From NCBI GenBank assembly GCA_024742485.1, contig JANSYK010000001.1:2418001-2482000 (forward strand): a stretch of DNA of 64,000 bases. Direction: 5' to 3'. Position 1 is the first letter of the stretch; each line of letters begins with the position of its first letter. The notes beneath the pieces are model-generated. The model was not told where the DNA came from, made no database searches, and saw only the letters and a program-made list of their open reading frames with translations. Below, piece after piece: positions 17,774-32,723 of the stretch. This DNA comes from Alphaproteobacteria bacterium (GTDB taxonomy: Bacteria; Pseudomonadota; Alphaproteobacteria; Rhizobiales; Rhizobiaceae). The position numbers and the translations under genes were made by a program.

Positions 17774-17791
17774 TGTACCGAGCGGTCAGTA
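17774..17791 (+). promoter_or_regulatory. TetR-type operator candidate before the ene-reductase/glcDEF operon
   Basis: TGTACCGAGCGGTCAGTA. The inner TACCGagCGGTCA is a near-palindrome. 15 of 18 bases match the reverse complement of the site at 32706-32723 in front of the ribose-type importer operon. The last two bases start a TATAGT (17790-17795) that could be the -10, so bound protein would block the promoter. The TetR gene at 23652 is the likely binder. Confidence 0.55.
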
Positions 17792-17859
17792 TAGTGCCCG
17801 TGGCATAGGTTGAGCTTTGGCTGAAATCGAGTTGCATTCGGGAAGAGGGAGAGAGCGTT

Positions 17860-19812
17860 GTGACCGGCTATGATCATGTTTCCGCACCAGGACAGATTGG
17901 AAATCTGACCATCAGGAACCGTGTTTCCATGTCTCCGATGGAGCGAAACTGGGCTGACCGGCTCGGCAATCCGACCCAGGCCTACATCGACTATCTGGTT
18001 GAACGTGCCAAGGGTGGTGTCGGGTTGATGGGGGTTGAGTCAACCTATATCGACGCCCGTGGCCGCGGCAACATGTTCCAGCTTGGCCTGTGGCACGACA
18101 GCAATATCGACTGGCACAAGAAGCTCAATGACGCGGTCAAGCCGCACGGCGTGCGCACCCAGGCCGAGATCAACCATGGCGGCCGCAACTGCTCCATACC
18201 ACGCACTGGCCTGCAGCCGGTCGCCCCGTCGCAAATTCCCAATGACATTGTCGGCGCCAATGTGCTGAAGGAACTCAAGGCCGACGGCATATCGGAAATC
18301 GTCGAACGCTTTGCCGATGGCGCCCGGCGGGCAATTGCGGCCGGATATGACATGATCACCATCCACGGTGCCCATGGCTATCTCATCACCAGTTTCCTGT
18401 CGCCGAAATACAATCAGCGCGATGACGACTATGGCGGCAGCGAGGAAAACCGCTGGCGTTTTCCACGCCGGGTCTTTGAAGCCATCCGCCAGGAAGTCGG
18501 CGGCGACGTACCGGTCGGTATCCGCATTTCGGCCATCGAGGATGTGGAAGGCGGCATGACGATCGAACAGTCCGCCAACTTCATCAACCATCTGAGTGAG
18601 CTTGGCCTCGACTATGTGGATGTCAGCGCCGGTATTTATGAATCGCTGGAAACGGTAATCCAGCCCATGGACCTCCAGCAGGGCTGTCTGCTGCCGCATG
18701 CGCGCGCCATCCGGGAGAAGGTCAGCATTCCGGTGATCGCCGCCGGCCGCATCAACGACATCGACATTGCCGAACGAGCTGTCAGCAGTGGCGATGCGGA
18801 TTTCGTCCACATGGGGCGCGCCTTCCATGCCGATCCCGAGATCTATGCCAAAACCGTCAATGGCAACAAGGACAAGGTGATCGGTTGTATCGCCTGCAAC
18901 CAGTGTTGCGCGGTCCTGTTCGTCAATGAACGCTCGGTCTGCACCGTCAATCCGGCCGCCGGCCGCGAGCGGTCGATGCCGATCATTGCAGCGCAAACGC
19001 CGAAAAAGGTCATGGTGGTCGGCGGAGGCCTGGCCGGAATGGAGGCCGCCGCCGTCGCCGCGCAGCGCGGGCACGACGTCACGCTCTATGAGAAGAACGA
19101 CACCTGTGGCGGCATCATCACGATCATGCGCTCGGCCCGCAACAGGCTCAATTGGGGACGAGCCGCTGAAGACAGGATCCAGCTACTGCGGGAATCCGGC
19201 GCAAAGGTCGTGACCGGCAAGGAAATAACGCCCGACGACATCCGGGCAGAAAAGCCCGACGTGCTGATCCTGGCAACCGGAACCAAACCGTTCATGCCGG
19301 CCTATATTCCCGGAATCGATGAGGACATTGTCACCAATTACGATGATCTGATCCGCGGCCGAACGGATGTCGGGGTCAATGTGGTGCTTCTGGGTGGCAA
19401 CATGTCGATCGCCACGACCACCGCCGAATATCTGGCGGAAAATGGCGCGGATGTCACGGTCATCGAGGCAACCGAAACGCTGGCCGAGGATGAGGAATAC
19501 ATGGCTCGAAAGGTCCTAATGGAGCGCATCGAGGCCAATTCGCAGATCACCGTGCGCACCAACGCCAATATTGAAGAGATTCGCGAGGACAGCGTGATCG
19601 TGCAGTCGGGCGGCGAAACCGAAGAGCTGGAGGATATCGACCAGGTCGTCGTGGCGCTTTTGCGGGACATGGATCGCGACCTGATAGAGAACGTCACCGG
19701 CGGCCTCACGGATGAACTGGGGATCGAGACCCATGTCATCGGCGATGCGTCCTGGCCGCGCCATCCCTATTACGCGGTGCTCGAAGGATCGAACATCGGC
19801 CGGGCGATCTGA
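17860..19812 (+). CDS. FAD/FMN/4Fe-4S ene-reductase (2,4-dienoyl-CoA reductase / old yellow enzyme class)
   Basis: 650 residues from GTG 17860, preceded by GAGGGAGAGAG. Residues 1-340 are an OYE-type TIM barrel (LTIRNRVSMSPMERNW, TIHGAHGYLITSFLSPKYN, NQRDDDYGGS). The Fe-S site follows as GCIACNQCC...VCTVNP. The C-terminal half has two dinucleotide folds, VMVVGGGLAGMEAA (FAD) and VVLLGGNMSIATTTAEYL (NADPH). The layout is that of FadH and trimethylamine-dehydrogenase-like enzymes. It probably reduces a C=C bond or demethylates an amine. The operon context with glcDEF-like genes suggests catabolism of an unusual substrate, not fatty acids specifically. Confidence 0.92.
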   Translation: MTGYDHVSAPGQIGNLTIRNRVSMSPMERNWADRLGNPTQAYIDYLVERAKGGVGLMGVESTYIDARGRGNMFQLGLWHDSNIDWHKKLNDAVKPHGVRTQAEINHGGRNCSIPRTGLQPVAPSQIPNDIVGANVLKELKADGISEIVERFADGARRAIAAGYDMITIHGAHGYLITSFLSPKYNQRDDDYGGSEENRWRFPRRVFEAIRQEVGGDVPVGIRISAIEDVEGGMTIEQSANFINHLSELGLDYVDVSAGIYESLETVIQPMDLQQGCLLPHARAIREKVSIPVIAAGRINDIDIAERAVSSGDADFVHMGRAFHADPEIYAKTVNGNKDKVIGCIACNQCCAVLFVNERSVCTVNPAAGRERSMPIIAAQTPKKVMVVGGGLAGMEAAAVAAQRGHDVTLYEKNDTCGGIITIMRSARNRLNWGRAAEDRIQLLRESGAKVVTGKEITPDDIRAEKPDVLILATGTKPFMPAYIPGIDEDIVTNYDDLIRGRTDVGVNVVLLGGNMSIATTTAEYLAENGADVTVIEATETLAEDEEYMARKVLMERIEANSQITVRTNANIEEIREDSVIVQSGGETEELEDIDQVVVALLRDMDRDLIENVTGGLTDELGIETHVIGDASWPRHPYYAVLEGSNIGRAI

Positions 19813-19815
19813 GCG

Positions 19816-21243
19816 ATGGGCCTGGACTGGTTCGGCAGGCACAATCGAGCCCGGACGAACGGCGAGCGGGTCACCCGCGACACCACCCGGTTGCTGGCGG
19901 ATCTGGCCGAAATTTTGCCACCGGACGGTTTGGTCACATCCGATCGCGCGCTCAAGGTCCATGAAACGGACGGATATGTCGCGCAAAAAGGCCGTGCCGC
20001 GGCCATCGCAAGGCCGCGGTCCACCCGGCAGGTCCGGGACGTGATGAGACTGTGCCATCTCCATGGCGCACCCGTTGTTCCGCGTGGTTCAGGAACCAGC
20101 CAGGTCGGCGGCGTTGTTCCTGAGGACGGTGCCATTCTGATTTCAATGGCGCGGATGAAGTCCGTGCTGGAATTCGATCGGAACAAGGGTCTGATCCGCG
20201 TCCAGGCCGGTATCACCAATCTCAAGGTCAGCAAATACGCCGTGCGGGCCGGTTGGTTTCACGCGCCCAATCCTTCATCGCGACGCACCTGTACGATCGG
20301 CGGCAACATCGCCACCAATTCCAGCGGATCGTCGTTCCTGCGCTACGGCGGCACGGCCGATAACCTTGTCGCGGCACACCTGGTTCTCGATGATGGGGAG
20401 AGCATCGAACTCTCCGGCGACGACCCGGCGCTCGCTCTGATCTGCGGGTCGGAGGGACAGATGGGCCTGGTAACGGAAGCGCAGCTTCGGCTCCACCGGA
20501 TTCCCGAAAGCCGAATGGCTCTGGTCGCCGGTTTTGCAACCGTCCGCGCGGCTCTTGCCTTCAGCCAATCGGCACTGGCACAAAGCGACAGCCTGTCCGC
20601 ACTCGACCTGATGGACAAAAGAGCCGTCCGGCTGACTGAAGCGTTTCGGCCCAGCGACTATCCGCTTGGCGCCGAGGCGATCATTTTGGCCGAACTGTCC
20701 GGGCCAGCCGCATCGGTCGATCATCAGACCAACGCACTCGCATCGCTGGCTGGCAGGCACGACATGATCACCTGCAGGACGAGCACCGACATCCAGGCAA
20801 TCTGGTCTGGTCGTAACGCCGTTTACGGCGCGATTGGCCAAAGGAATAACTTTCTCAGCCTCGATTGCGCTGTACCGCTGTCGCAATTGCAGCAGCAAAT
20901 CGAACAAAGCAAGCTCGTGGCGAAAGACCACGCGCTGGAGGTGGCAACTGTCATCCATTGCGGCGACGGAACGGTGCACAGCTTCCTTCTGTTCGATCCC
21001 AATGATCCCGATGAAAGGAGCCGTGCGGACCGCTGCGCCGTCTTGATCCGCAGCAAGGCCGCCGGAAATGGTGGCTCCGTCTCATCTGAATACGGCATCG
21101 GACTTCGAAACCGTAAAGCACTGGCCCTGCAATATTCGGCCCGCTCGCTGAAGCAGCAGACCGACATTGTCGAGGCATTTTCAAAGGAACGCACCCTCAA
21201 CCCCGGCAAGTGTTTTCCGGAATGGATGCGGGGGGCTTCGTAA
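19816..21243 (+). CDS. FAD-binding oxidoreductase, glycolate oxidase GlcD-like subunit
   Basis: 475 residues, 3 bases after the preceding stop. FAD_binding_4 domain (PRSTRQVRDVMRLC, VVPRGSGTSQVGG, GWFHAPNPSS, TIGGNIATNSSGSSFLRYG) and a C-terminal FAD-oxidase domain with the conserved GDGTVHSF near residue 380 and SSEYGIGLRN. The GlcD/D-lactate dehydrogenase family oxidises 2-hydroxy acids and passes electrons through GlcE/GlcF. With the next two genes it forms a GlcDEF-type membrane-associated dehydrogenase; the hydroxy acid substrate is unknown. Confidence 0.92.
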   Translation: MGLDWFGRHNRARTNGERVTRDTTRLLADLAEILPPDGLVTSDRALKVHETDGYVAQKGRAAAIARPRSTRQVRDVMRLCHLHGAPVVPRGSGTSQVGGVVPEDGAILISMARMKSVLEFDRNKGLIRVQAGITNLKVSKYAVRAGWFHAPNPSSRRTCTIGGNIATNSSGSSFLRYGGTADNLVAAHLVLDDGESIELSGDDPALALICGSEGQMGLVTEAQLRLHRIPESRMALVAGFATVRAALAFSQSALAQSDSLSALDLMDKRAVRLTEAFRPSDYPLGAEAIILAELSGPAASVDHQTNALASLAGRHDMITCRTSTDIQAIWSGRNAVYGAIGQRNNFLSLDCAVPLSQLQQQIEQSKLVAKDHALEVATVIHCGDGTVHSFLLFDPNDPDERSRADRCAVLIRSKAAGNGGSVSSEYGIGLRNRKALALQYSARSLKQQTDIVEAFSKERTLNPGKCFPEWMRGAS

Positions 21244-21989
21244 TGGCAACCGCCTATCCTGAAACAATTGGTCAGACCGCACAAATCATACGTGCCGCGG
21301 CAGGTGGTGGCAGCCTGCAGATCATCGGGAACGGAAGCCGCTACCCGGCGGACCCTGGGACACCCGGTCTGTCCGTTGCAGGTTTGTCCGGCATACGGAT
21401 TTATGAGCCGAATGACTGGACCGTAACGGTCGGCGCGGGAACACCACTGGCGCAAATCAACAAAATCACCTCTACGAATGGGCAGAGGCTGGCTTTCGAA
21501 GTGCCAACCGATCGACGAAAGGACGATCCAGACCCCAAAGCAACCATTGGCGGCGCGATTGCGACGAACGCCGGCGCATCTCCCGGTCGCCGGTTGCGGG
21601 ACAGCGTGCTTGGGATGCGGTTCATCAATGGCAACGGCGAAATCATCGAGGCGGGTTCCCGGGCAATCAAGAATGTCGCCGGGATCGATCTGGCGAGAGG
21701 GCTCGTCGGCTCCTGGGGGAACCTCGCATTGATCTGCGAGGTGACGCTGCGTCTGGTCCCCGTTTTACCGCGGCAGCAAACCATCGCGGCCACGGTTCCC
21801 ACCTTCGTGGCGGCCTTGGCGCCGGCCGACGCATCACACGCAGACAGGACAATCGAATTCGGAGCGATCGAGCGGCCTTCGTCGAGCGCAAGACGATCCA
21901 GGGACCGGCTCAACGACCGCATCAAACAGGCCTTTGACCCAAAGGGTGTTTTCAGCAGCAAACCCTTTCTGTTTCGGACCGCGAGTTGA
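21243..21989 (+). CDS. FAD-binding subunit, GlcE-like
   Basis: 248 residues from ATG 21243, which overlaps the TAA of the preceding gene (TAATG). A short FAD-linked oxidase: QIIGNGSRYPADPG, WTVTVGAGTPLAQIN, TIGGAIATNAGASPGRRLRDSVLGM and IKNVAGIDLARGLVGSWG. It ends FDPKGVFSSKPF, a typical C-terminus. It lacks the large oxidase C-domain, as GlcE does. Confidence 0.9.
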   Translation: MATAYPETIGQTAQIIRAAAGGGSLQIIGNGSRYPADPGTPGLSVAGLSGIRIYEPNDWTVTVGAGTPLAQINKITSTNGQRLAFEVPTDRRKDDPDPKATIGGAIATNAGASPGRRLRDSVLGMRFINGNGEIIEAGSRAIKNVAGIDLARGLVGSWGNLALICEVTLRLVPVLPRQQTIAATVPTFVAALAPADASHADRTIEFGAIERPSSSARRSRDRLNDRIKQAFDPKGVFSSKPFLFRTAS

Positions 21990-21998
21990 GGAGGAACC

Positions 21999-23351
21999 AT
22001 GGAAACCCGTTTTTCCATCGCGGCGTTGGCCGACCCGGATGTCCAGGAAGCCGAACAGATTATCAAGCAGTGCATTCATTGCGGATGTTGCAATGCCGGT
22101 TGCCCCACCTTTGATCTGCTGGATGATGAACTGGATAGCCCGCGCGGCAGAATTTATCTGCTCAAGGACATGCTGGAAAACGGCCGGGCCGCCGACCGCG
22201 AAAGTGTTCTGCATCTCGACCGGTGCCTGTCGTGCCTTGGTTGTCTCACGACCTGCCCGTCCAATGTCGACTACATGCATTTGATCGACCATGGGCGTGT
22301 TCATATCGAAAACACATATCAACGCCCTCTTCCCGACCGTATGGTGCGCGCACTCATCAGCCTGGTGTTGCCCTACCCGTCCCGGTTTCGCACCGCAATG
22401 CACTTGGCCCGGCCCGTTAAGCCACTGGCCGAATTGCTGGGATCCATTGCGGCACTCAAACCAGTTGCTGCCATGTTGGACCAGGCGCCCACACAACTGC
22501 CAAAACCTTCAGATGCTCCAACGCGAGGGATCTTCGCGCCTCAAAATTCAGGTACGAAACGGGTTCTCATTCCGTCTGGCTGCGTGCAGCAGGTCCTTGA
22601 CGCCGACATCAACGCATCCGCCATCCGGCTGCTCAATCATTTTGATGTGGCTGTTGAAGTCCCCAACGATGACGGTTGCTGCGGCGCACTTGTCTATCAC
22701 CTTGGGAAAAAGCGCCAGGCGTTGGAGCAGGTACGGCGCAACATCGATGCCTGGCATCCAAAACTTGAAGCCGGCGAAATCGAAGCGATCGTTATCACGA
22801 CATCGGGATGCGGAACAACCATCAAGGATTATGGGCACATGCTGGCCAATGATCCCGACTATCGAGAGCGAGCCCGGCAGATTTCCGAAAGTGCGGTGGA
22901 CATCTCACAATATCTCGTGGCGCTTGATCTGCCGAAACCGGAGCGGAAGCTGGGTGTCAGCGTCGCCTACCATTCCGCCTGCTCGCTACAGCACGGGCAG
23001 AAGATCATGAATGAACCGCGCAAGCTGTTGTTGAGGGCGGGATTCAAGCTCAAGCGCCCTGAAAATGAACATTTGTGCTGTGGATCGGCGGGCACCTATT
23101 CCATTCTGCAATCGGACATCTCCAGGCAACTTCGCGACAACAAGGTCGACCATCTCAGCGCGACCGACGCGCAGGTCATTGCCGCTGGAAACATTGGTTG
23201 CATCAAGCATATCGGAGCCGGAACCGACATTCCCATTGCCCATACCGTGGAATTGCTCGATTGGGCCTATACAGGCCACAAACCAAGGAAACTGGCAGAT
23301 CTTGAACACCAAGACCGAAAGCAGCCAGCAAACGGACACGCAAAGGATTGA
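21999..23351 (+). CDS. Iron-sulfur subunit, GlcF-like (two 4Fe-4S plus two CCG domains)
   Basis: 450 residues with a strong GAGGAGG site. Two ferredoxin-type motifs near the N-terminus, CIHCGCCNAGCPTF and CLSCLGCLTTCPSNV, then two Cys-rich CCG-type domains (DDGCCGALVYHLGKK and HLCCGSAGTYSIL, each with an upstream Cys). It passes electrons from the GlcD/GlcE flavins towards quinone. A loosely conserved, basic C-terminal tail follows. Last gene of the operon. Confidence 0.93.
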   Translation: METRFSIAALADPDVQEAEQIIKQCIHCGCCNAGCPTFDLLDDELDSPRGRIYLLKDMLENGRAADRESVLHLDRCLSCLGCLTTCPSNVDYMHLIDHGRVHIENTYQRPLPDRMVRALISLVLPYPSRFRTAMHLARPVKPLAELLGSIAALKPVAAMLDQAPTQLPKPSDAPTRGIFAPQNSGTKRVLIPSGCVQQVLDADINASAIRLLNHFDVAVEVPNDDGCCGALVYHLGKKRQALEQVRRNIDAWHPKLEAGEIEAIVITTSGCGTTIKDYGHMLANDPDYRERARQISESAVDISQYLVALDLPKPERKLGVSVAYHSACSLQHGQKIMNEPRKLLLRAGFKLKRPENEHLCCGSAGTYSILQSDISRQLRDNKVDHLSATDAQVIAAGNIGCIKHIGAGTDIPIAHTVELLDWAYTGHKPRKLADLEHQDRKQPANGHAKD

Positions 23352-23651
23352 ACCATGGATGGACGGAGGAGCCGGACGCTGAAATTTTCTGTACATTGCA
23401 ACCCAGCGCTGATAATTGCTGCCGTGCGGATGATCGGGTGAACCGGGTTACGGCAGCTTCGCAGGCGTTGAGTTCGACGCCGCACCAGGGATTTCACCGC
23501 AGTGAACAATGTTTCGATCTGCGGCCGCCGGTTCTGTGACGGCGCGACATCGAACTTTCCAGCCAGGTGCGAAGAAAAGCCCGTACAGCCGATGCGTTGG
23601 CAATGCTTGGCATGGTTCGGATCCTGACCACCGGTATTTTTGGAGACTTTT
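23352..23651. other. 300-base gap between glcF-like and tetR genes; no supported gene
   Basis: Short frames exist on both strands but none has a ribosome site, a recognisable domain or a plausible start. On the reverse strand a frame rich in Arg and Gln could be a decayed coding remnant, but I cannot identify it. TGACC-AC-CGGTA near 23624-23635 resembles the operators at 17774 and 32706 with one base less in the middle and may be the tetR autoregulatory site. Confidence 0.4.
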
Positions 23652-24266
23652 TTGAACACTGACCAACCACAAGTGGCGAACAAGCCGCCAAAGCCGATCT
23701 CCGGAACGAAGCGGATGATCATGGCAAAGGCCGCCGATCTGTTTGCCGAAAAGGGGTTCTCAGCCGTTGGAACGACGGAAGTCGGCGAAGTCGTCGGGCT
23801 GGGCAAGGGCGCACTCTACTATCACATCGGGTCCAAGGGCGATCTGCTTTACGTGATCATGACGGATTATATGGCAACGCTGATTGAAAGCGGACGGGCC
23901 ATTGTCCAGGACACAACCGATACCCGGGAGCGGATTGAACAGCTAAGCCGGTCGTTCATGGAAACGATGTTTTCCAACCGCTCCGCCATGACGGTGTGCT
24001 TTCGCGAAATCCACTCCCTTAATATCGACCTGCAGGAAAATGTCGTCCAGCTCCATGGCGACTATCAGGAAATCTGGGAAAAGACCTTCGAGGAAGGTGC
24101 CAAGCGCGGTGAGTGCAGATCGGTAAACCGCATCGAATGCAAGGCGCTTCTCGGCATGTATTTCTACAGTTTTCTCTGGGTCAAGACCAACGGTTCGGCA
24201 ACCGGTGAGGAAATCTCCGACAATTTTGCCGGGATCGTTCTCGACGCGGTCGGCATCGGGCGCTAG
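23652..24266 (+). CDS. TetR/AcrR-family transcriptional regulator
   Basis: About 204 residues from TTG 23652, chosen because GGAGAC lies 8 bases upstream; TTG 23640 and ATG 23715 are alternatives. The N-terminal helix-turn-helix is clear: MAKAADLFAEKGFSAVGTTEVGEVVGLGKGALYYHIGSKGDLL. The C-terminal ligand domain (residues 80-200) is all-helical and KstR-like in length. It sits between two operons that share an 18-base operator-like sequence, so it is the probable common repressor, with a substrate-derived inducer. Confidence 0.9.
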   Translation: MNTDQPQVANKPPKPISGTKRMIMAKAADLFAEKGFSAVGTTEVGEVVGLGKGALYYHIGSKGDLLYVIMTDYMATLIESGRAIVQDTTDTRERIEQLSRSFMETMFSNRSAMTVCFREIHSLNIDLQENVVQLHGDYQEIWEKTFEEGAKRGECRSVNRIECKALLGMYFYSFLWVKTNGSATGEEISDNFAGIVLDAVGIGR

Positions 24267-24393: not shown

Positions 24394-25902
24394 CTACCCG
24401 CCAATGGGCTCACCCGTCGCCGTTTTTCCGTATCGCGCACCGATTTCCGCTCGGATTTCCGGCACGCCATGTTTCCAGAACATCGACCGCATATAGTCCG
24501 CAGCGCCCGGTAGCGCATCCGGCCCGGTGATCCTGAACATCTCCCCGACAACGGCGCTGTTATCGATGATCTCCTGCAGTTCCGCATCTCCGACATCCGC
24601 CGGATCGCCTCCGAAGAGCTTGGCGAAATGGACGGCCATTTCATGTTGCTGGCGATAGTCGGAATGATGCCCCTTTTCGACGCATTCGGCGACACCGGCT
24701 TGCAACGCTTCACGGCTGGGAGCCGGTATAACTCCGCCCCATGTATAGGCGATATAGCGTGCCTGTTGCTCCAGCACGACCGGATAGGGGCCCAATTGGG
24801 CATACATGCCGATAAAGGCCAGATTCTCCAAATCCGGATGAAAGGTGAATTCGCTCAGATCGATCGACTTTCTGGTCAGATTGACAGTTCGCGCAATGCC
24901 ATCGCTCAGATAGGGCAGATTGAGGTCGAAACCGGTGCCGATGATAATCGCATCGACGTCCACCTTGGTTCCATCGGTAAAGGTCACCGTGTTTCCGCTG
25001 ACGCTCTGCACCCACGGCCTGGCGTCAATCCGGTCTTCCGCCATCAGATTGAGATAGTGCTGCGATCCGGTGATACCGGCTTTCGCCATGTCCTCGTGGG
25101 GAGCGGGCGCGCCATATCGTGCAGGATTGCCGCCCATCGTCTCCAGGAATTCCTTTGCACCAGCGAGCAGGACCTCCGGATCCTCTTCCCGAAAGGCAAG
25201 GCCCCCGGCACGGGTGAAGGCGTAATATTCCAGGGGTACACCGGCAAACATTTTCGGCATGACGTAACGCTGTCGGCGCTGAGCCAGATAGACACGCTCC
25301 GTCGGCATCATGGCCATGTCGCTGGCAATCTCCAGAGATGAGATACTGCCGCCGAGAACCAGAATGCGCTTGCCGAGATAGGTCTCGGGCTTCTTGTATC
25401 GAAAGGCGTGAATCACACCGCAATCGCCGGTGAAATCGTCAAGCCCGTCGATCTTCGGAATGTCCGGTTTGTTGAATCGCCCGCTGGCAACGACCACCCG
25501 GTCGAAGTGGCGGGTATTGGTCTCGCCGTGTCTTTCAGTGGTGATTACATAACCGCCGCCGTCGTCTTTTTCCACCAGCTTGACCATCGTTTCGAATTCG
25601 AAAAGGCCTCGCAGGTCGAACTTGTCGACATAGGCGTTGATCATGTCGAGCACCTCGCCATTGCGGGGAAACATCGGAACACCCTCGGCAAATTCGATAT
25701 CCGAATAGCGCGTTGCAAAGCGTGCGGTATTGATCCGCATCCGCGGCCACACACCGCTATTGGTATTGGTCCGCTCCCATTGGCCACCCAGATTGCTGTG
25801 GCTTTCGATTATCGTGCAATCGAACCCCTGGTCCTTCAGATATCGGCCACAGGCAATGCCGGCAATTCCCGCCCCGATGATCGCGACTGTATCCGTCCCC
25901 AT
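24394..25902 (-). CDS. Flavin-containing monooxygenase (class B, FMO/BVMO type)
   Basis: 502 residues. N-terminal FAD fold GAGIAGIACGRYL with LGGQWERTNTNSGVWP, and a second dinucleotide fold ILVLGGSISSLEIASDMA for NADPH. Between them, FTGDCGVIHAFRY corresponds to the FMO fingerprint FxGxxxHxxxY but with two extra residues before the His. VDAIIIGTGFDLNLPYL is the conserved C-terminal ATG-type motif. It probably oxygenates a soft nucleophile (N or S) or a ketone. Last gene of the seven-gene leftward operon, suggesting that it acts on the substrate of the ribose-type importer. Confidence 0.9.
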   Translation of the reverse strand: MGTDTVAIIGAGIAGIACGRYLKDQGFDCTIIESHSNLGGQWERTNTNSGVWPRMRINTARFATRYSDIEFAEGVPMFPRNGEVLDMINAYVDKFDLRGLFEFETMVKLVEKDDGGGYVITTERHGETNTRHFDRVVVASGRFNKPDIPKIDGLDDFTGDCGVIHAFRYKKPETYLGKRILVLGGSISSLEIASDMAMMPTERVYLAQRRQRYVMPKMFAGVPLEYYAFTRAGGLAFREEDPEVLLAGAKEFLETMGGNPARYGAPAPHEDMAKAGITGSQHYLNLMAEDRIDARPWVQSVSGNTVTFTDGTKVDVDAIIIGTGFDLNLPYLSDGIARTVNLTRKSIDLSEFTFHPDLENLAFIGMYAQLGPYPVVLEQQARYIAYTWGGVIPAPSREALQAGVAECVEKGHHSDYRQQHEMAVHFAKLFGGDPADVGDAELQEIIDNSAVVGEMFRITGPDALPGAADYMRSMFWKHGVPEIRAEIGARYGKTATGEPIGG

Positions 25903-25965
25903 ATCAACTTCCTCCTGTAAGATTCATCTCTGGATGTGGTTTCGCTGCCACCAGACGGGCCGGCT

Positions 25966-27168
25966 TCAGGCCATTGCATCTCGCAATGTGTTGAACAGCA
26001 GATCAGCAAAAGCCGGATCGTTGATATTGTCATCGGATTCGATCACCTCGACCGAGGCAGCTTTGGCCTCGAGGACCCCGTCGCGAAAGGCCCGCACGGC
26101 GTCGGGGTCCCAGAACGGCGCATCCGGCTTGTCCAGCATGGACACACCACCCAATGGAACCACGATTGCCGTGGACGCAGACGGATTGCCTATCCTCTTC
26201 GCCGCCACCTGCCCGAGTTCATGGCATTCATCCGCCGTCGTACGCACCAGGGTCACTAGGTCGTTGTGGGCCAGAATTTCGCGGTTATCCAGGGTTTCGG
26301 GCACGGTCCGTCGCCGGCCGTAGCAGATCATGTCGATTGCGCCGGGCGCCAGGACCTGTGGCAATCCCGCCTTGGCTACATTGGTCAACCGGTCGGATCC
26401 GGCGCCGAACATGCCGCCGAACAACTCATCGGTCAGTTCACTGATCGTGATGTCGGCGACCCCCTCCACCAGCCCTTGCTGTGCGAAGGTCTCGAGCGTG
26501 CGGCCACCGGTGCCATTGGCATGGAAAACGTAAGGTTCGAAGGAGGCTTGTGCGAAGAGATCGCTGACCCGCGAAACACACGGAGTCGTGACGCCATACA
26601 TCGACAGTGCAACGGCCCGCTCCGACGAGTTCGACACGGCCAGTGGAACATTCGACTTCAGGGCCACAGCCGTCTTCGCCGCGCGCAGGATCATCTGGCG
26701 CAAGATGGCGTTGTCACCTTCAACATCGGTGATCGGATAGATCAGAACCACATCGTTGGAACCGACAAGTGGCCGTGTATCGGTCGCCACCGCCGTCGAC
26801 ATGAGGATTTTCGGAATACCAAGCGGCAGCAGAGGCGCCAGCCGGGTAAAGGATGACGAAGCGCCGGTGCCGCCCATACAAACCAGAGCGCCCACCTGAC
26901 CCTCTGCCCCAAGCTCGGACAGGATAACGGATGCGGCATCCGCCATGATCGACGTCGCCTCCGCTCTGCCCCTGTCGGCAAGCGTGCGGATATCGACATC
27001 GATGCGGTCTGCCACGGCAGACGCGGGAAAATCCCAGTCATTGTCCTTCGGATAAACCGATATGTCGATCATCACCGGTTCCTCACCAAGGTCCCTTATG
27101 GCCTTGCGCAACGCATTGAGCGGTCCTGCCTTGCTGTCAAAGGTCCCTGCGATGACGATTTTCGACAT
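25966..27168 (-). CDS. Tm-1-like ATP-binding domain protein (UPF0261)
   Basis: 400 residues. N-terminus IVIAGTFDSKAGPLNALRKAI is the UPF0261 hallmark, followed by ADAASVILSELGAEGQVGALVCMGGTG and LMSTAVATDTRPLVGSNDV, and a Gly-rich VFHANGTGGRTLETFA segment. The family is the bacterial counterpart of the N-terminal half of the plant resistance protein Tm-1; its biochemical role is unsettled. The start lies 3 bases after the stop of the PEP-hydrolase-like gene, which matches the other half of Tm-1. In an operon with an importer and redox enzymes it probably takes part in substrate breakdown. Confidence 0.9.
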   Translation of the reverse strand: MSKIVIAGTFDSKAGPLNALRKAIRDLGEEPVMIDISVYPKDNDWDFPASAVADRIDVDIRTLADRGRAEATSIMADAASVILSELGAEGQVGALVCMGGTGASSSFTRLAPLLPLGIPKILMSTAVATDTRPLVGSNDVVLIYPITDVEGDNAILRQMILRAAKTAVALKSNVPLAVSNSSERAVALSMYGVTTPCVSRVSDLFAQASFEPYVFHANGTGGRTLETFAQQGLVEGVADITISELTDELFGGMFGAGSDRLTNVAKAGLPQVLAPGAIDMICYGRRRTVPETLDNREILAHNDLVTLVRTTADECHELGQVAAKRIGNPSASTAIVVPLGGVSMLDKPDAPFWDPDAVRAFRDGVLEAKAASVEVIESDDNINDPAFADLLFNTLRDAMA

Positions 27169-27170
27169 GA

Positions 27171-28010
27171 TCAGCCCTTGCTCAGCGGCACGGATTTGAA
27201 CCCGGCCACTGTGTCCTGAATGGCAGTTTCAACCGGCAGGCGTTCCATGGTCGAAGCGCCGATGAAGCCATCGGTTCCGGTCGCATGCATCACGGTTGCC
27301 ATATCGTCCGGCCCCTCAATGGGTCCGCCGTGCAGGAGAATGATGACATCGTCCCGGATGGATCTGGCGCTTTGCTTCATGGCATTGGTCAACTCGATAC
27401 AGTAATCGAGCGATTTCGATGCCCCGTCCGACGCTCCGATGGAACCACCGGTCGTCAGACCCATATGGGCGACGACAATGTCCGTACCGGCTCTTGTAAA
27501 GGCGTCAACCGAAGCCACGTCATAGCAATAGGCGAGCGTGAAGATGTCCTTTTCGCTGCACATGCGGATCATGTCGACCTCCTTGTCGACCCCGAATCCG
27601 GTCTCCTCCAGCGACTTTCGGTATTCGCCGTCAATATATCCGTGCGAAGGGAAATTGATGACGCCGGCAAATCCCATCGGAGGAAGCGTATCGAGAAAAC
27701 GGGGCATGACACGGGTTGGATCGGCGCCAAATACACCGGCTATCACCGGCGTATCGTCGACGATCGGCAGAACATCGCGCTGTCCCATTTCCACAACGAT
27801 TTCATTGGCATCCCCGATGGGCAGCAGGCCGGCATTGGAGCCATATCCGTTCATCCGATACCGGCCCGAATTGTAGATCAGGATCAGATCGGCGCCGCCC
27901 CGCTCGGCAAATTTCGCCGAGATACCGGTACCGGCACCGGCACCGATGATCGGCCGACTCTCTGCCAGGGATTTACGCAATCGTTTCAAAACCGTCTGGC
28001 GGTCGAACAT
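27171..28010 (-). CDS. Phosphoenolpyruvate hydrolase-like TIM-barrel protein
   Basis: 279 residues. Family marks are PIIGAGAGTGISAKFAERGG near the N-terminus, LILIYNSGRYRMNG, LPIVDDTPVIAGVFGADPT, MGFAGVINFPSHGYIDG and ILLHGGPIEGPDD. Named PEP hydrolase in family databases because of one studied phosphonopyruvate-type member, but the real reaction is mostly unknown. It corresponds to the C-terminal TIM-barrel half of plant Tm-1. Tightly linked to the Tm-1-like gene, so the two products probably work together. Confidence 0.9.
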   Translation of the reverse strand: MFDRQTVLKRLRKSLAESRPIIGAGAGTGISAKFAERGGADLILIYNSGRYRMNGYGSNAGLLPIGDANEIVVEMGQRDVLPIVDDTPVIAGVFGADPTRVMPRFLDTLPPMGFAGVINFPSHGYIDGEYRKSLEETGFGVDKEVDMIRMCSEKDIFTLAYCYDVASVDAFTRAGTDIVVAHMGLTTGGSIGASDGASKSLDYCIELTNAMKQSARSIRDDVIILLHGGPIEGPDDMATVMHATGTDGFIGASTMERLPVETAIQDTVAGFKSVPLSKG

Positions 28011-28049
28011 GGAACGTCTCCGTCGAGATGGGATTGATTGATCCGCCGA

Positions 28050-28844
28050 TCAATCAACCATGATCATGCCGCCATTCACGTGAATGGTCTGACCGGTGAT
28101 GTAGGCCGAGGCTTCCGAGGCCAGAAAGATCGCCGTTCCGACGAGATCTTCCGCAACCGTCATCCGGCCCAGTGGAATATATTTTTCATATTCCATCAGG
28201 AAATCGCGGTGATGGGCGTGCATCGGCGTATCGACGCCGCCCGGCGCAATCGCGTTGACCCGAACGGATGATTCGGCAACGTTCTGTGCCGCGCCGCGCG
28301 TATAGGCCTGCAATCCGGCCTTGGCGGAGCAATAGTCCACGCCACCGCCCGACTGGTTGAAACAGGACGCCCGCGATGACCACGAAGAACCCATATTGAT
28401 GATCGAGCCGCTTCCCTGCGCAACCATCTCGGTCAGGGCAGCCTTCATCAGACGGATCGGCGCTTTGAGATTGATCGTCAGCATGCGGTCCATCTCTTCA
28501 TCTTCGATGGTCGTCGCTTCCGTGTAGCTCATGATGCCGGCATTGTTGATCAGAACATCGATCCGCCCGCCGAGTTCCTTGGCAGCTGCGATCATTTTTG
28601 CCGGCGCATCATCGGCCGACACATCGGCCGCGACCGCGACAACATTCGGATTGATCTCGGCGATCCGCTCCCTTGTCTTGGCCAGCGTGTCCGCATTGAG
28701 ATCGATCATCACCACCTTGGCGCCCGCCGAAGCAAAGCCTTCGCTCAGAGTTTCGCCGATACCCTGGGCCGCACCGGTGATCGCAACCACCTTGTCGGAC
28801 ACATCAAAAAGGTTTCCCCGAATGTTTGGAACTGCAAGACTCAT
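28050..28844 (-). CDS. SDR-family oxidoreductase
   Basis: 264 residues. Classical short-chain dehydrogenase: cofactor motif AITGAAQGIGETL with Asp in MIDLNAD favouring NAD, NNAG, and the catalytic YCSAK. VNAIAPGGVDTPM and a C-terminal YITGQTIHVNGGM complete the pattern. Catalytic Ser is in MGSSWSS. It probably oxidises a hydroxyl of the compound taken up by the importer genes just upstream. Gaps of 39 and 27 bases link it into the operon. Confidence 0.91.
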   Translation of the reverse strand: MSLAVPNIRGNLFDVSDKVVAITGAAQGIGETLSEGFASAGAKVVMIDLNADTLAKTRERIAEINPNVVAVAADVSADDAPAKMIAAAKELGGRIDVLINNAGIMSYTEATTIEDEEMDRMLTINLKAPIRLMKAALTEMVAQGSGSIINMGSSWSSRASCFNQSGGGVDYCSAKAGLQAYTRGAAQNVAESSVRVNAIAPGGVDTPMHAHHRDFLMEYEKYIPLGRMTVAEDLVGTAIFLASEASAYITGQTIHVNGGMIMVD

Positions 28845-28871
28845 GATTGTCTCCCTTGTTTGATTGACGGT

Positions 28872-29861
28872 TCAGGTGCGCCGGTTGGGGCCGAGCGTGT
28901 AGCTCATCAGCAAAGCGACGACGAGAAGGACGCCCTGCACGAAGCTCTGTGCGAAATAGGGGAAATTGAACATCGTCAGGCCGTTGATCAAAACAGCGAC
29001 GAATATGGCGCCGATGAGCGTACCAAAAGCATTGGGACGGTTGGCGCCCAGCACCGCATAGCCAACAAGTGCCGCCGACACAGCCTGCAGCAGAAAGGCA
29101 TCACCCACATTGACATCACCCCGATTGGAACGTGCTGCCAGCATGATCCCGGCAATGGCCGCAAGCGCGCCGGAAATCAGATAGGCGGCCATGCGGTACC
29201 GGGCGACTCGGATGCCGGCGGCAGCCGCAGCAACCGGATTGCCACCAACGGCATAGAAAGCCCGGCCCCAGCGCGTATAGTTCAAGAGAACCATCACGCA
29301 CAGAAAGATAATGCCCGCAACGATGACCGACGCCGGGATGCCCTGGAACTGACCCGATCCCAGCCACTTGAATATGGGTGAAAACTTGCCGGTGGCGGCC
29401 TGTCCATTGACCGCCATGCCCTCGGCGACCGACTGTCCGCCCACACCGAGGAGGGTCAGTCCGTTGATCAGAAACAGTGTCGACAGGGTCGCCACCAGAT
29501 CGGGGATGCGGGCATAGACGATCAGGAACGTATTGAACAGACCGACGGCGAGGCCGGCCCCGATTCCGATCAGGATTGCGGCAATGCCGCCCATATTGCC
29601 GATAACCATGGCGGCCGCTGCCGCCATGACGGCAAGGCTCATGGATGCACCGACCGAAAGATCGAACCCGCCCACCGTCATTGAAACCGTACAACCCAGC
29701 CCGATCACCGCCACAATGGAAGCAGCCTGGAGGACGAACATGGCATTGATGAATGTACCGAAAAACGGTTGCGTAGCCGAAAAATAGGCAATCATCGCAA
29801 AGAGCACTGCAAGCAGGCCGTAGCGGTACACGAAATATTTTGTTTTCTGGACAGGATCCAT
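28872..29861 (-). CDS. Ribose-type ABC transporter permease (RbsC family)
   Basis: 329 residues with about nine hydrophobic segments. The family motif GLGCTVSMTVGGFDLSVGASMSLAV is present, as is the cytoplasmic loop ALGPGFL-like NYTRWGRAFYAVGGNPVAAAAAGI that meets the ATPase. It forms the homodimeric inner-membrane channel with the ATPase at 29912-31441 and the receptor at 31545-32627. Confidence 0.92.
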   Translation of the reverse strand: MDPVQKTKYFVYRYGLLAVLFAMIAYFSATQPFFGTFINAMFVLQAASIVAVIGLGCTVSMTVGGFDLSVGASMSLAVMAAAAAMVIGNMGGIAAILIGIGAGLAVGLFNTFLIVYARIPDLVATLSTLFLINGLTLLGVGGQSVAEGMAVNGQAATGKFSPIFKWLGSGQFQGIPASVIVAGIIFLCVMVLLNYTRWGRAFYAVGGNPVAAAAAGIRVARYRMAAYLISGALAAIAGIMLAARSNRGDVNVGDAFLLQAVSAALVGYAVLGANRPNAFGTLIGAIFVAVLINGLTMFNFPYFAQSFVQGVLLVVALLMSYTLGPNRRT

Positions 29862-29911
29862 CCGCTAGCCGCCTGCTTCGCTGTGTCTGGGACGTGGTTT
29901 TTGAACGCGCA

Positions 29912-31441
29912 TCAATGCAGTGTTTCTCTTCTGTTTTCAGGGGCCGGCGACCCGGTCTGGCTCATGATGTCCGACAGGGATTCGGAACTGACATTGCTCG
30001 CCTTGTCTTCATGAAGGATCTGCCCCTCGACCATGATGAGGACCCGATCGGCCACTTCGATGACCTCTTCGGGATCCGAACTGCAAACAATGACCGGTGC
30101 CTTCAGAGCATAGTCCCGAAGCGCTGCCGATATGGCGCCCCTGGCGCCGATATCGATGCCCCGGAACGGTTCATCCAGAACGAACAGTTTCCAGTCCTGC
30201 TCCATCCAGCGACCGACAAGCAGTTTTTGCTGGTTGCCGCCCGAGAGGTCTTCGATCTCTGCAACGGCTCCCGGACAGACAACGCGAAAACTCTCGATCA
30301 CGTCCTTGGTAAACGCGATCTCGCGGCTCGGGTTCATGATACCGAAACGGTTGAACAGACCCAACAGCCCAATGGTGCAATGGTTCCAGAGGGTTTCTCC
30401 GGGAAAGATTGACTGCAGCGCCCGCTGCTCCGGTACCATGACAACACCGTTCGCCATGGCATCCGCCGCGTCCTTTGGGGTGTAGGGCGTGCCTTCGAGC
30501 TTCATGTCACCGGCAATCAGGCCGCGATGACCGCAGATCTGCTCGAGCAATTCGGTCTTTCCGGCACCGATGAGCCCGGTGAGACCGACGACCTCGCCGC
30601 GGCGCAATTCAAGATTGATCGGCGCACCGTCAGGCGTTGCGCGCAGCCCCTTGGCCTCGAAGGCCAGGTCAGTGCCGTCACGGCATTCATGTCCCGAATT
30701 CAGCACAAGCTCACCGAGGATCGAACTGGCGATGGCCTTGGTATCCAGAGGTGTTTCGTGTTCGGAAACGATCAGCCCGTTGCGCAGCACGACCGCACGA
30801 TCACACAACAATTCGATTTCGCTCATTCGGTGGGAAATATAAAGAATGGCGATCCCGCGCCGCTTCAAATCCTTGACCGCTTCGAACAGTTTTTCCGACT
30901 CCCGCTCCGAAAGCGTCGACGTCGGTTCGTCCAGGATCAGCAGCTTCGGATTCTTGACAAGAGCCCGGGCGATCAGAACTTCCTGTCGCCCGCTCGCCGA
31001 AAGGTTTTCGATCGGCGCCGCCAGGGGCAGGTCAAGTTCAAGCTGCTCTTCAATTTGTTTGGCCCGCTTCATGATGGCGTTCTGGTTGATGAAGATTGAA
31101 GAGCCGGACGCTGAAATTTCTTCCAGGAGAAGATTTTCAGCCACCGACATTCCGAAAACCACTCCGTCATCGATATTCTGGTGCACCGTTTCGATGCCCG
31201 CGCCACGCGCATCATCGGGAAACGCAAATGTTTTCTTCTCGCCCTCGACAAAGATATCACCGGACGTCGCACTGTAATTGGCCGACAATATCTTGATCAG
31301 GGTCGACTTTCCCGCACCGTTCGCCCCCAGCAATCCGAGCGTTTCACCGGCCTTGACGTTGAGACTGACACCGCGCAGGGCGCGTGTGGCGCCAAAAGCC
31401 TTGGTGATGTCTTTGATTTCAAGAAGCACGAATTCGCTCAC
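29912..31441 (-). CDS. Ribose-type ABC transporter ATP-binding protein (RbsA family, double domain)
   Basis: About 509 residues from GTG 31441 (GTG 31429 is also possible; a longer frame to 31498 enters the upstream hairpin). Two fused ATPase domains. The first is intact: GANGANGAGKST-type Walker A (LGANGAGKST), LSASGRQEV signature, LLILDEPTSTLS. The second has GLIGAGKTE and LSGGNQQKLLVGRWM but a weaker Walker B, LFVLDEPFRGIDIGA. This asymmetry is normal for RbsA. It powers the RbsC-type permease. Confidence 0.91.
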   Translation of the reverse strand: MSEFVLLEIKDITKAFGATRALRGVSLNVKAGETLGLLGANGAGKSTLIKILSANYSATSGDIFVEGEKKTFAFPDDARGAGIETVHQNIDDGVVFGMSVAENLLLEEISASGSSIFINQNAIMKRAKQIEEQLELDLPLAAPIENLSASGRQEVLIARALVKNPKLLILDEPTSTLSERESEKLFEAVKDLKRRGIAILYISHRMSEIELLCDRAVVLRNGLIVSEHETPLDTKAIASSILGELVLNSGHECRDGTDLAFEAKGLRATPDGAPINLELRRGEVVGLTGLIGAGKTELLEQICGHRGLIAGDMKLEGTPYTPKDAADAMANGVVMVPEQRALQSIFPGETLWNHCTIGLLGLFNRFGIMNPSREIAFTKDVIESFRVVCPGAVAEIEDLSGGNQQKLLVGRWMEQDWKLFVLDEPFRGIDIGARGAISAALRDYALKAPVIVCSSDPEEVIEVADRVLIMVEGQILHEDKASNVSSESLSDIMSQTGSPAPENRRETLH

Positions 31442-31487
31442 CAGGCTGGAGGAAACAGGACAGTTGGAAGACACCCCGCAGGGCAAC

Positions 31488-31529
31488 GCCTGCGCCACGC
31501 AGCAAGCGATAGTCTGTGATGGCGCAGGC
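31488..31529 (-). other. Intercistronic hairpin between receptor and ATPase genes
   Basis: GCCTGCGCC (31488-31496) pairs perfectly with GGCGCAGGC (31521-31529) over a 24-base loop. It starts 16 bases after the receptor-gene stop codon on the transcribed strand, with no T-run. Such stems keep the receptor message stable or cause partial termination. Confidence 0.55.
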
Positions 31530-31544
31530 AGCAGTCTTGGGATG

Positions 31545-32627
31545 CTACTTTTTCATCCACGGAGCTTCGGCAAGCCCCGGTGTTTGCAGACCCGGGAATT
31601 TCTCCGGAAGTGTTTCCACATTCTGCACACCGGCTTCGATCAGCTCTTCACGGGTGATCACCAGAGGAGGAATGAGAAGGTCATTTCCTTCATAGGAATC
31701 AACCACTTCTCCGGCTGCTACACGAAGGGAAACGCGACCGAAATTGCGCATATCGGTGGTTGCGGTGGCCACCCACGGGCTGTTGTCAGCCGTCATGACC
31801 GCAATATCAGCTGTCGAGATGTCCATGCCGTAAGCTTTCACCTTGTCTTCGAGGCCAAGCTCCTGGATGGCCAGCGTCGCGCCCTTGGTGAATTCGTCAT
31901 AGGGCGCAATGATCGCCACGACATTCGGGTTGGCTGACAGGGCCGCTTTTGCCTGATCTGCCGTTTGAGCAGCCGTATTGGCATTGACGACACCGATCTG
32001 TGCAACCTGCTTGATTCCGGGATTTTCTTCCTGGAATTCCACCCAGACCTCGTTACGAAGGTCGAGCGGGAGATATCCGGCCACGTAAACGTAGATCACC
32101 TCGCCTTCAACCGGCTTGTCCCCGAAATCCGCGGCGAATTTGTCAACGATACCGCGCATCATCAGCTTGTCGCTCTGGTTGACATTGGTGACGTGATCCG
32201 ACGCTTTCACAGAAGCGTTGCTGGTCACGACCGGAATTCCGGCAGCTTTCGCTGCATCCAGGCCCGCTTGCAGACTGTCGCCAAAGCCCCAGCCGATCAG
32301 AATCGCGTCGGGTTGGGTGGAAACCGCCTGCTGCAGTTGCAGCGCCTGTTTCGCATTGTCGCCATCGGCATTGTAGATCGTCAGTTTTGCACCGAGCCTT
32401 TCGGCTTCTTCCTCGACGCCGGCGATCCACTCCTGGTAGACGTCACCGGTGTTCAACTGGCGCACAACGGCGATGTCGACCTCGCCATTGGCAAAGATTT
32501 CGGGTTTGTCCGCTGGCGCATTCGGTGCCACTTTCAACGGCACCGTGTTGGCAACGGCCGCAGTTGCAAGCATCAGACCGACAATACCGGTGGTCAAAAC
32601 ACCTTTTCCAAGCTTCTGTAAATTCAT
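31545..32627 (-). CDS. Ribose-type ABC transporter substrate-binding protein
   Basis: 360 residues with a signal peptide (LTTGIVGLMLATAAVA, cleavage near AVA-NT). The mature protein is a type I periplasmic-binding fold: DIAVVRQLNTGDVYQEWIAG, LTIYNADGDNAKQALQLQQAV, PDAILIGWGFGDSLQAGLDAA, IPVVTSNASV. Sugars, polyols or autoinducer-like molecules are typical ligands; this one is unknown. First gene of the seven-gene operon and preceded by the operator-like site at 32706-32723. Confidence 0.92.
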   Translation of the reverse strand: MNLQKLGKGVLTTGIVGLMLATAAVANTVPLKVAPNAPADKPEIFANGEVDIAVVRQLNTGDVYQEWIAGVEEEAERLGAKLTIYNADGDNAKQALQLQQAVSTQPDAILIGWGFGDSLQAGLDAAKAAGIPVVTSNASVKASDHVTNVNQSDKLMMRGIVDKFAADFGDKPVEGEVIYVYVAGYLPLDLRNEVWVEFQEENPGIKQVAQIGVVNANTAAQTADQAKAALSANPNVVAIIAPYDEFTKGATLAIQELGLEDKVKAYGMDISTADIAVMTADNSPWVATATTDMRNFGRVSLRVAAGEVVDSYEGNDLLIPPLVITREELIEAGVQNVETLPEKFPGLQTPGLAEAPWMKK

Positions 32628-32705
32628 GATCTCCTCCTAGGTTACGCTCTGTTCGTCGCAAGTTCTCTGCAGGCTTTTCCGGTTCACCCTCCAACCTATT
32701 TTTCG

Positions 32706-32723
32706 TAGTGACCGATCAGTACA
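32706..32723 (-). promoter_or_regulatory. TetR-type operator candidate before the ribose-type importer operon
   Basis: On the minus strand it reads TGTACTGATCGGTCACTA, 15 of 18 identical to the site at 17774-17791 and in the same orientation towards its operon. It ends 79 bases before the receptor gene start. It lies in the gap shared with the rightward exporter gene, so that gene could also be affected. Confidence 0.55.

Follow-up and report, generated by a model that had tools for sequence, protein, structure and literature searches.

Two opposed operons of a rhizobial genome bring the bacterial counterparts of the plant virus-resistance protein Tm-1 together with an importer and a set of redox enzymes. 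This raises two questions, whether one regulator joins both operons and what the Tm-1-like proteins do in them. The locus spans about 15 kb of a 64,000-nucleotide stretch of DNA from a member of the Rhizobiaceae, which was analysed as a whole and is called the window here.

Gene content of the two operons

The two operons and the regulator gene between them comprise 12 genes, flanked by two predicted operators.

17774-17791, + strand: operator 1, TGTACCGAGCGGTCAGTA, precedes the ene-reductase operon, 68 bases 5' of its first codon
17860-19812, + strand: FMN/FAD/Fe-S ene-reductase, 2,4-dienoyl-CoA reductase/BaiCD type, 650 aa (PF00724, Pyr_redox_2)
19816-21243, + strand: GlcD-like FAD-linked oxidase subunit (PF01565, PF02913; below NCBIfam cut-offs)
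21210-21989, + strand: GlcE-like FAD-binding subunit, 259 aa (PF01565)
21999-23351, + strand: GlcF-like Fe-S subunit (NF008434, 456 bits, cut-off 333)
23640-24266, + strand: TetR-family regulator (TetR_C_24), probable start 23652
24394-25902, - strand: flavin-dependent monooxygenase, FMO-like (PF00743)
25966-27168, - strand: UPF0261 protein (Tm-1 N-terminal-like), proposed small-molecule kinase (PF06792, PF23189)
27171-28010, - strand: PEP_hydrolase-family TIM barrel (Tm-1 C-terminal-like), proposed lyase (PF09370)
28050-28844, - strand: short-chain dehydrogenase, SDR (PF13561)
28872-29861, - strand: importer permease, ribose/arabinose type (PF02653; NF007067, 143 bits, cut-off 398)
29912-31498, - strand: importer ATPase with two ABC domains (PF00005, two stretches; NF008442, 388 bits, cut-off 689)
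31545-32627, - strand: periplasmic binding protein of the importer (PF13407; top solved match 4ry8, E 1e-54)
32706-32723, - strand: operator 2, TGTACTGATCGGTCACTA, precedes the importer operon, 78 bases 5' of its first codon

By its sequence the importer falls into the ribose/arabinose/xylose class. It reaches none of the NCBIfam cut-offs of named sugar importers shown, and for the RbsABC equivalogs the binding protein scores 26 of 337, the ATPase 300 of 745 and the permease 143 of 398. The designation as a ribose-type importer in a preliminary description of this DNA is thus correct for the class and too specific for the sugar, and assignment as a ribose importer was rejected because of these scores. 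The solved protein closest to the binding protein, 4ry8, is presumably a 5-methylthioribose-binding protein. Three relatives align with the ATPase from residue 24-25, and its start therefore probably lies about 24 codons inside that of the open reading frame. A related importer (62-83%) is also present on a Bradyrhizobium plasmid, with no UPF0261 match within the stretch and a distant PEP_hydrolase-family gene (35%) about 8 kb away.

Customary roles were assumed for the FMO and SDR families, as for the MaoC and thiolase families discussed below. The FMO stays below the trimethylamine monooxygenase equivalog (126 of 675 bits), and this assignment was discarded. FMO matches on plasmids of Pelagibacterium (by annotation) and Cupriavidus (by matches) were accompanied by no related cluster.

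In the other operon, the top solved match of the ene-reductase is 6qkg 'NCR A' (E 6e-95), which we take to be a 2-naphthoyl-CoA reductase. The bile-acid (BaiCD, 475 of 825) and mycofactocin (OYE 2, 465 of 793) assignments were rejected since both equivalog scores lie below cut-off. The following three genes had been described as a GlcDEF-like oxidase. This is borne out by GlcF alone, which reaches its curated cut-off, and not by GlcD (285 of 897 and 254 of 568) or GlcE (125 of 284), the latter being about 100 residues short and devoid of the mid-part present in the 377-aa GlcE of the relative G307; glycolate as the substrate was rejected on these scores.

The UPF0261 protein scores 242 and 114 bits for its two Pfam domains, with a gathering cut-off of 27 each. 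Its structural model (residues 2-400, pLDDT 93.6) has the two-domain fold of Tm-1, with a TM score of 0.81 to tomato Tm-1 (3wrw_A) and of 0.56-0.57 to 9mpy; the query for model and alignments begins at residue 2, and residue numbers there are one lower. By sequence comparison plant Tm-1 (E 6e-55) is nearer to the window protein than Saro_1862 (E 2e-36), the UPF0261 protein that was solved as 9mpy with bound acetovanillone in an entry whose title names the ligand and not a reaction. As pointers to ATP binding or kinase activity there are the annotation name and this ligand. The PEP_hydrolase barrel scores 356.9 bits for PF09370 (gathering cut-off 33.8) and belongs to a family that presumably corresponds to COG5564. 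The top structural match of its model is 2p10, followed by other TIM barrels; TrpA, PdxS, IGPS and methylisocitrate lyase are among the neighbours, with TM scores to non-family structures of only about 0.5-0.58 and two loops poorly modelled. Many polar residues are invariant within the family, as expected for an active enzyme. The folded alignments comprised the window sequence with 38 of the 72 reading frames listed for UPF0261 and 38 of the 87 listed for PEP_hydrolase. Both halves of the Tm-1-like pair are hence present as described, 'PEP hydrolase' being a family label; hydrolysis of phosphoenolpyruvate was rejected as the function of the barrel, with the family name as its sole support.

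Of 134 loci found, 80 were kept and examined; in 61 of these the two genes share a strand and are no more than 400 bases apart. Such pairs adjoin several other kinds of transporter, and their reaction must therefore be a general one. According to PMC5028733, UPF0261 and PEP_hydrolase genes occur in bacteria, archaea and fungi and are fused in land plants, where two gene transfers and a fusion event gave rise to the Tm-1-like protein. The open-licence papers searched gave no function for the pair.

A probable shared operator and its distribution

The preliminary description had noted an 18-base sequence in front of both operons, 15 of 18 positions identical and equally oriented relative to the respective operon, and a tetR gene between them; the sites and the gene are found where it placed them. 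Operator 1 lies inside a promoter-like ATGACT-17-TATAGT (17767-17795, a consensus match only), and a consensus promoter sought at operator 2 was not found. Fifteen is the top 18-mer identity between the 130-bp upstream stretches of the two operons, and of 1490 pairs of 130-bp stretches taken at random from the window 12 reach at least 15/18 as well, so the identity alone is too weak as proof of significance. The original search pattern had been derived from both window sites, so that its matching them is no test. Across the 161 contigs of the genome (6.87 Mb) this pattern gave 18 matches with up to three mismatches and 12 for the reversed control, for which reason the three-mismatch matches were rejected as extra regulon members. 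Only the two window sites had fewer than two mismatches. A two-mismatch site at C154:104172, beside a TOBE-domain ABC ATPase, was taken as chance.

The generalised pattern TGTACYGANCGGTCRGTA is found with up to one mismatch at three places in the genome, namely the window sites (0 and 1) and another contig (1). Its exact form has six copies in 4 of 397 genomes of the order (control pattern, one), five of them in G000, G205 and G307, the same three genomes that carry the PEP_hydrolase clade of the window (E 1e-95 or better). The sixth, in G336, precedes an unrelated TetR gene (TetR_C_28) and a gene of the acetoacetate-decarboxylase family. Sites with no or one mismatch number 17 in 11 of the 16 cluster loci; the reversed pattern has no match in these 16, and 1.45 Mb of background, made up of 79 further loci from mixed taxa, contain no operator site. 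The operator is found again upstream of the importer and ene-reductase operons in three relatives (L009, G205 and G307). The TetR proteins of the three relatives with the same cluster are 61-65% identical to that of the window, and those of five sister loci with exact sites 50-55%. Several genomes that encode a related TetR thus have a conserved operator in front of each of the operons. Upstream of the window's own tetR there is no operator site even at up to five mismatches.

It is this comparison, a rare pattern in the same genomes as the PEP_hydrolase clade, that turns a modest 15/18 match into a strong one. The similarity might be coincidental and the operons unrelated, as the equally good random pairs would allow, but the site is kept in three relatives and the exact pattern is absent from 393 of the 397 genomes, so that we regard coincidence as refuted in practice. 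A TetR regulon that joins the importer and ene-reductase operons is, by phylogenetic footprinting, well supported. TetR would act through the 18-base palindromic operator on the ene-reductase/GlcDEF-like operon and on the importer operon with the genes of binding protein, ATPase, permease, SDR, PEP_hydrolase, UPF0261 and FMO, and by family habit its mode of control may be repression.

Lower module, sister clusters and a predicted pathway

The third site, on another contig, lies by an operon that encodes a second TetR, acetoacetate-CoA ligase, thiolase, an OB-fold protein, MaoC and an MFS protein. The ligase of this trans module (L098) scores 678.7 bits for TIGR01217, above the equivalog cut-off of 520.9. 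G205 and G307 have the full lower module within the cluster, and in L009 MaoC and the start of the ligase gene lie in the cluster at the contig edge. Since the third operon carries the ligase module, which is unified with the others in two relatives, the end point of the pathway is probably acetoacetate or a closely related beta-keto acid; regulon and lower module are supported by these comparisons. The earlier claim of a complete catabolic pathway is only partly right, as completeness within the 15 kb is not supported, the operon for ligase, thiolase and MaoC being on another contig. No named pathway with this set was met in the open-licence papers searched, which agrees with the preliminary description for a search of some, not all, gene combinations. 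At E 1e-98, further orthologous clusters were absent from 297 family and 385 class genomes apart from the window's own, and from 28 genomes of the family of G205 apart from G205 and G307. A protein of locus L092 resembles an isomerase, with 105 of 700 bits for the sulfoquinovose isomerase family.

Seven proteobacterial plasmid loci (Rhizobium, Shinella, Ochrobactrum, Mesorhizobium, Sulfitobacter) form sister clusters. They have the acetoacetate-CoA ligase/thiolase/OB-fold/MaoC/MFS operon and a sugar-class importer in common with the window regulon, a related TetR in six of seven and the exact operator in five. The Sulfitobacter cluster has an FMO 48% identical to that of the window, a TetR of 47% and no site with fewer than three mismatches; the Mesorhizobium cluster showed no TetR match and no operator site. 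All seven encode a class II aldolase and six a PfkB-type kinase, the sequence of the remaining one (L108) ending before the kinase position, whereas the window has UPF0261 and PEP_hydrolase instead. The fetched stretches of the seven loci gave no match to UPF0261, PEP_hydrolase, ene-reductase or GlcDEF, and the top match of the window genome to the sister-cluster aldolase is 28%. The replacement is not a clean one in G205, where a class II aldolase, 59% to that of the sister clusters, lies about 1.7 kb from glcF, beside an apparent inositol-type cluster.

We propose that the regulon imports a sugar-like or polyol-like compound, which SDR, FMO, ene-reductase and the 2-hydroxy-acid oxidase would oxidise and rearrange. 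UPF0261 would use ATP to yield a phosphorylated intermediate, a phosphate ester that the PEP_hydrolase barrel would cleave or rearrange, the two presumably doing the job of PfkB kinase and class II aldolase in the sister clusters. The product, acetoacetate or a close beta-keto acid, would be converted to its CoA ester and thiolysed by the operon at the third operator copy, with its TetR paralogue. From the sister clusters, the ligand of 9mpy and the single-component kinase MarK of the same strain (see below) we propose, with moderate confidence, that UPF0261 is an ATP-dependent small-molecule kinase; weak to moderate is our confidence, drawn in part from the neighbours of its model, in the barrel as a lyase acting on the phosphorylated product. 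The scheme as a whole, i.e. regulon and uptake, kinase/lyase pair and acetoacetate end, has in our estimate an even chance of being correct. We suggest tentatively that Tm-1-like proteins represent an unrecognised class of metabolic enzymes, in which a small-molecule kinase with a separate fold (UPF0261) and a lyase for the phosphate ester (the barrel) offer an alternative to PfkB kinase and class II aldolase.

Three other readings also accept the operator. The regulon might degrade a phenolic or aryl-ketone compound, with UPF0261 phosphorylating the phenol, the ene-reductase reducing a dearomatised ring and the side chain giving acetoacetate. The acetovanillone in 9mpy, 'NCR A' (2-naphthoyl-CoA reductase) as the top solved match of the ene-reductase and the ability of FMOs to act on aryl ketones would fit, but the importer belongs to the sugar class, the 12 genes include neither a ring-cleaving dioxygenase nor an Hpe-like biotin-dependent carboxylase, and the sister clusters have a PfkB-type kinase and an aldolase; we consider this unlikely. 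Similarly improbable is a TetR family that mainly controls the lower module and senses a CoA ester, the window operons having been captured by the operator and serving separate substrates. Five sister loci and the trans locus of the window genome do combine TetR, operator and ligase without the two window operons, yet all modules share one cluster in G205 and G307, parts of the lower module do so in L009, and the importer and ene-reductase operons are together in all three relatives.

More serious, if still doubtful, is the possibility that the regulon is real but that UPF0261 and PEP_hydrolase together make up one two-component enzyme, or an enzyme plus its activator, for a single step without a lyase, for example phosphorylation alone or an ATP-driven rearrangement. 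The proximity of the two genes and their fusion in plants (PMC5028733) are consistent with this, and such a kinase exists for acetovanillone in HpeHI (PMC12167813). Against it stand the invariant polar residues of PEP_hydrolase itself and Saro_1862, a UPF0261 protein that binds acetovanillone and comes from a strain in which, according to PMC13101465, acetovanillone breakdown begins with a single-component kinase, MarK; Saro_1862 is possibly this kinase.

Comparison with known systems

The closest solved relative of the barrel is Mll9387 of Mesorhizobium loti (2p10, E 4e-83), a protein known by its structure, for which 'putative phosphonopyruvate hydrolase' is the entry title and not a tested activity. 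The Hpe/Acv pathway, with HpeHI kinase and HpeCBA carboxylase, resembles the proposed scheme in that a catabolic route has an ATP-dependent start, but HpeHI is an ATP-grasp/swivel dikinase and not a UPF0261 protein (PMC12167813), and no domain of a biotin-dependent phosphophenylethanone carboxylase was detected in the 12 genes of the window. Saro_1862 of Novosphingobium aromaticivorans shares the UPF0261 fold and 14 family-invariant residues (alignment checked by eye) with the window protein, from which it is more distant than plant Tm-1.

The regulon provides UPF0261 and PEP_hydrolase with a defined context: a transcription factor with a very rare short operator, an importer with a binding protein open to ligand screening, and, to judge from acetoacetate-CoA ligase and thiolase, a probable end product. 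The sister clusters, which have a kinase and an aldolase in this setting, predict a definite reaction for the pair. Because the regulon includes bacterial counterparts of Tm-1, it offers a direct way of searching for the original job of that protein. If the kinase/lyase reading is true, Tm-1 would be a fused and repurposed bacterial kinase-lyase, and enzymology could test what this classical virus-resistance gene of plants did ancestrally. Tomato Tm-1 and its plant relatives unite UPF0261 and TIM barrel in one chain; the window has both domains in common with them, but as two genes of a bacterial operon that also encodes an importer and redox enzymes, with no antiviral context.

Two opposed operons and their predicted operator

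Domain and profile searches found the genes as the preliminary description had read them, arranged as two opposed operons that flank a TetR gene.

17860-23351, plus strand: ene-reductase/GlcDEF-like operon (FMN/FAD/Fe-S ene-reductase, then GlcD-, GlcE- and GlcF-like subunits)
24394-32627, minus strand (read leftward): importer operon (binding protein, ATPase, permease, SDR, PEP_hydrolase barrel, UPF0261, FMO)

The window GlcE (21210-21989) has 259 amino acids compared to 377 in the homologue of the related genome G307 and is about 100 residues short in its middle region, the cap, with the C-terminal end still recognisable; given this short subunit, the window oxidase may be altered or impaired.

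The 18-base sites at 17774-17791 (plus) and 32706-32723 (minus) are located 68 and 78 bases from the respective first codons, confirming the claimed positions and the orientation common to both operons. An equally good 18-mer match was obtained in 12 of 1490 random pairs of 130-bp window stretches, and the likeness of the two sites is by itself suggestive only. The proposed genome-wide scan, performed with the generalised pattern TGTACYGANCGGTCRGTA and at most one mismatch, returned only three places in the 6.87-Mb genome, namely the two window sites and C120:68494 on another contig. Among 397 genomes of the order, the window genome included, the exact pattern is present in six copies in four genomes, versus one for the backwards-read control. 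Five copies fall in the window genome and its relatives G205 and G307, the same three of the 397 genomes that harbour a PEP_hydrolase of the window clade at E 1e-95 or better. The sixth, in another genome (G336; L117 158-1518), directly precedes the gene of an unrelated TetR of type TetR_C_28, after which comes a gene of the acetoacetate-decarboxylase family.

Orthologous clusters and the lower module

Three orthologous clusters were found: in the Rhizobiaceae MAG L009, in G205 (L092, L097) and in G307 (L094, L095). Common to all of them are the binding protein, ATPase, permease, SDR, PEP_hydrolase, UPF0261, FMO, ene-reductase and a TetR 61-65% identical to that of the window, and in each the operator is retained upstream of the binding-protein gene and of the ene-reductase gene. 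This conserved neighbourhood, together with exact operators in only four genomes, is in agreement with the claim that one TetR regulon joins both operons, and the comparison supports a regulon that is real and rare. The window clade is rare: it occurs in 1/385 genomes of the class and 1/297 of the family (both times the window genome) and in 2/28 of the family of G205. The GlcDEF genes come after the ene-reductase in G205 and G307; the available stretch of L009 gave no Glc match, and a protein with an alpha/beta-hydrolase domain comes next on the opposite strand. A 479-residue protein inside the G205 cluster (L092 8104-9543) weakly matches sulfoquinovose isomerase (105 bits, cut-off 700); Pfam and PDB searches gave no match for it. 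A CoA ester is a plausible inducer because of the C-terminal family of the TetR and its NCBIfam neighbours FasR and FadR, all of which score under cut-off.

In G205 and G307 the cluster also comprises a lower module of MaoC hydratase, acetoacetate-CoA ligase, a thiolase-like protein with its OB-fold partner, an ordinary thiolase and an MFS transporter; in L009, MaoC is present together with the start of the ligase, which the contig edge cuts off. The window genome carries this module, without the ordinary thiolase, as an operon on C120 (L098, roughly 62.3-68.4 kb), preceded by the third operator and by a paralogue of the TetR (42%). The preliminary description had read the 15 kb as a complete catabolic pathway: the gene list was right, but with the lower operon on C120 the 15 kb are not the whole. 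The end point of the pathway, suggested by one curated family match and the genes around it, is probably acetoacetate or a closely related compound: the L098 ligase scores 678.7 bits against an acetoacetate-CoA ligase equivalog cut-off of 520.9, and lower-module genes surround it. A second, shorter ligase-like protein (34-37% identical to the main one) adjoins MaoC in two relatives (L095 3065-4672 and L009 9672-11333); the L095 copy is under the curated cut-offs (276 vs 521), and the shorter protein may be a copy that has changed or is inactive.

Sister clusters on plasmids

A plasmid search with the C120 thiolase matched 556 records; eight loci among the 15 matches listed were examined. Five (L106, L108-L111) encode a TetR 50-55% identical to that of the window, and in each of them an exact copy of the operator precedes the ligase gene; in L103 (Sulfitobacter) the TetR is 47% identical and the best sites have three mismatches, and L105 and L112 showed neither TetR match nor site. 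All except the Rhodococcus locus L112 have as neighbours an importer of the sugar class, one or two SDRs and a class II aldolase, and six of these seven also have a PfkB-type kinase, the L108 stretch ending ahead of it. In L103 an FMO 48% identical to the window FMO adjoins an aldehyde dehydrogenase. UPF0261, PEP_hydrolase, ene-reductase and GlcDEF gave no match in any of the eight loci within the stretches compared, and the best match to the sister-cluster aldolase in the window genome has 28% identity. A clean swap of kinase and aldolase for UPF0261 and PEP_hydrolase is argued against by G205, where a class II aldolase (59%) is found about 1.7 kb past glcF, beside a cluster that reads as inositol-type.

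The UPF0261/PEP_hydrolase pair and a possible pathway

In 61 of the 80 loci kept from 134 found, the two genes share a strand and lie at most 400 bases apart, and published profile work links them (PMC5028733, PMC8963296). In other loci the pair is accompanied by several further transporter types; its chemistry must therefore be general and not bound to the window substrate. The window genome has a second pair (L096, C120:180000-199000; 9128-11188), 34% and 53% identical to the first, with ABC ATPase matches about 4.5 kb off. On a Thermomicrobium roseum plasmid (L100 7722-16888) the pair stands in a gene run that also encodes a PEP/pyruvate-binding protein and a PEP-utilising enzyme, components reminiscent of two-component small-molecule dikinases.

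The predicted barrel (pLDDT 83.6; weak at 50-64 and 123-126) best matches 2p10, Mll9387 of Mesorhizobium loti (TM 0.81), followed at about 0.5-0.58 by TrpA, PdxS, archaeal triosephosphate isomerase, thiamin phosphate synthase, IGPS and methylisocitrate lyase. Most of these neighbours use phosphorylated substrates. From position, fold and one ligand we infer a putative lyase role for the barrel and a putative kinase role for UPF0261. A sugar-like compound would be imported and oxidised by SDR and FMO, UPF0261 would phosphorylate an intermediate, and the barrel would cleave or rearrange the phosphate ester; a fragment would then be ene-reduced and oxidised as a 2-hydroxy acid, and acetoacetate converted to acetoacetyl-CoA and acetyl-CoA. 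The order of these steps is a guess.

The UPF0261 model (pLDDT 93.6) fits tomato Tm-1 (TM 0.81) better than 9mpy (TM 0.56-0.57), the similarly folded Saro_1862 from Novosphingobium aromaticivorans, solved with acetovanillone bound. Fourteen residues invariant in a 39-row alignment (K12, G98, G99, K119, D138, D147, N152, H215, D238, E243, R259, D278, N301, R308; counted from residue 2, full protein +1) also occur in Saro_1862, as read by eye from the alignment. In that strain, acetovanillone breakdown starts with the single-component kinase MarK (PMC13101465), which we infer to be Saro_1862. The interest of the regulon rests on the pair, as this context makes the role of Tm-1-like proteins accessible to a few specific assays. 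In the regulon, known enzyme families are newly arranged around this uncharacterised pair.
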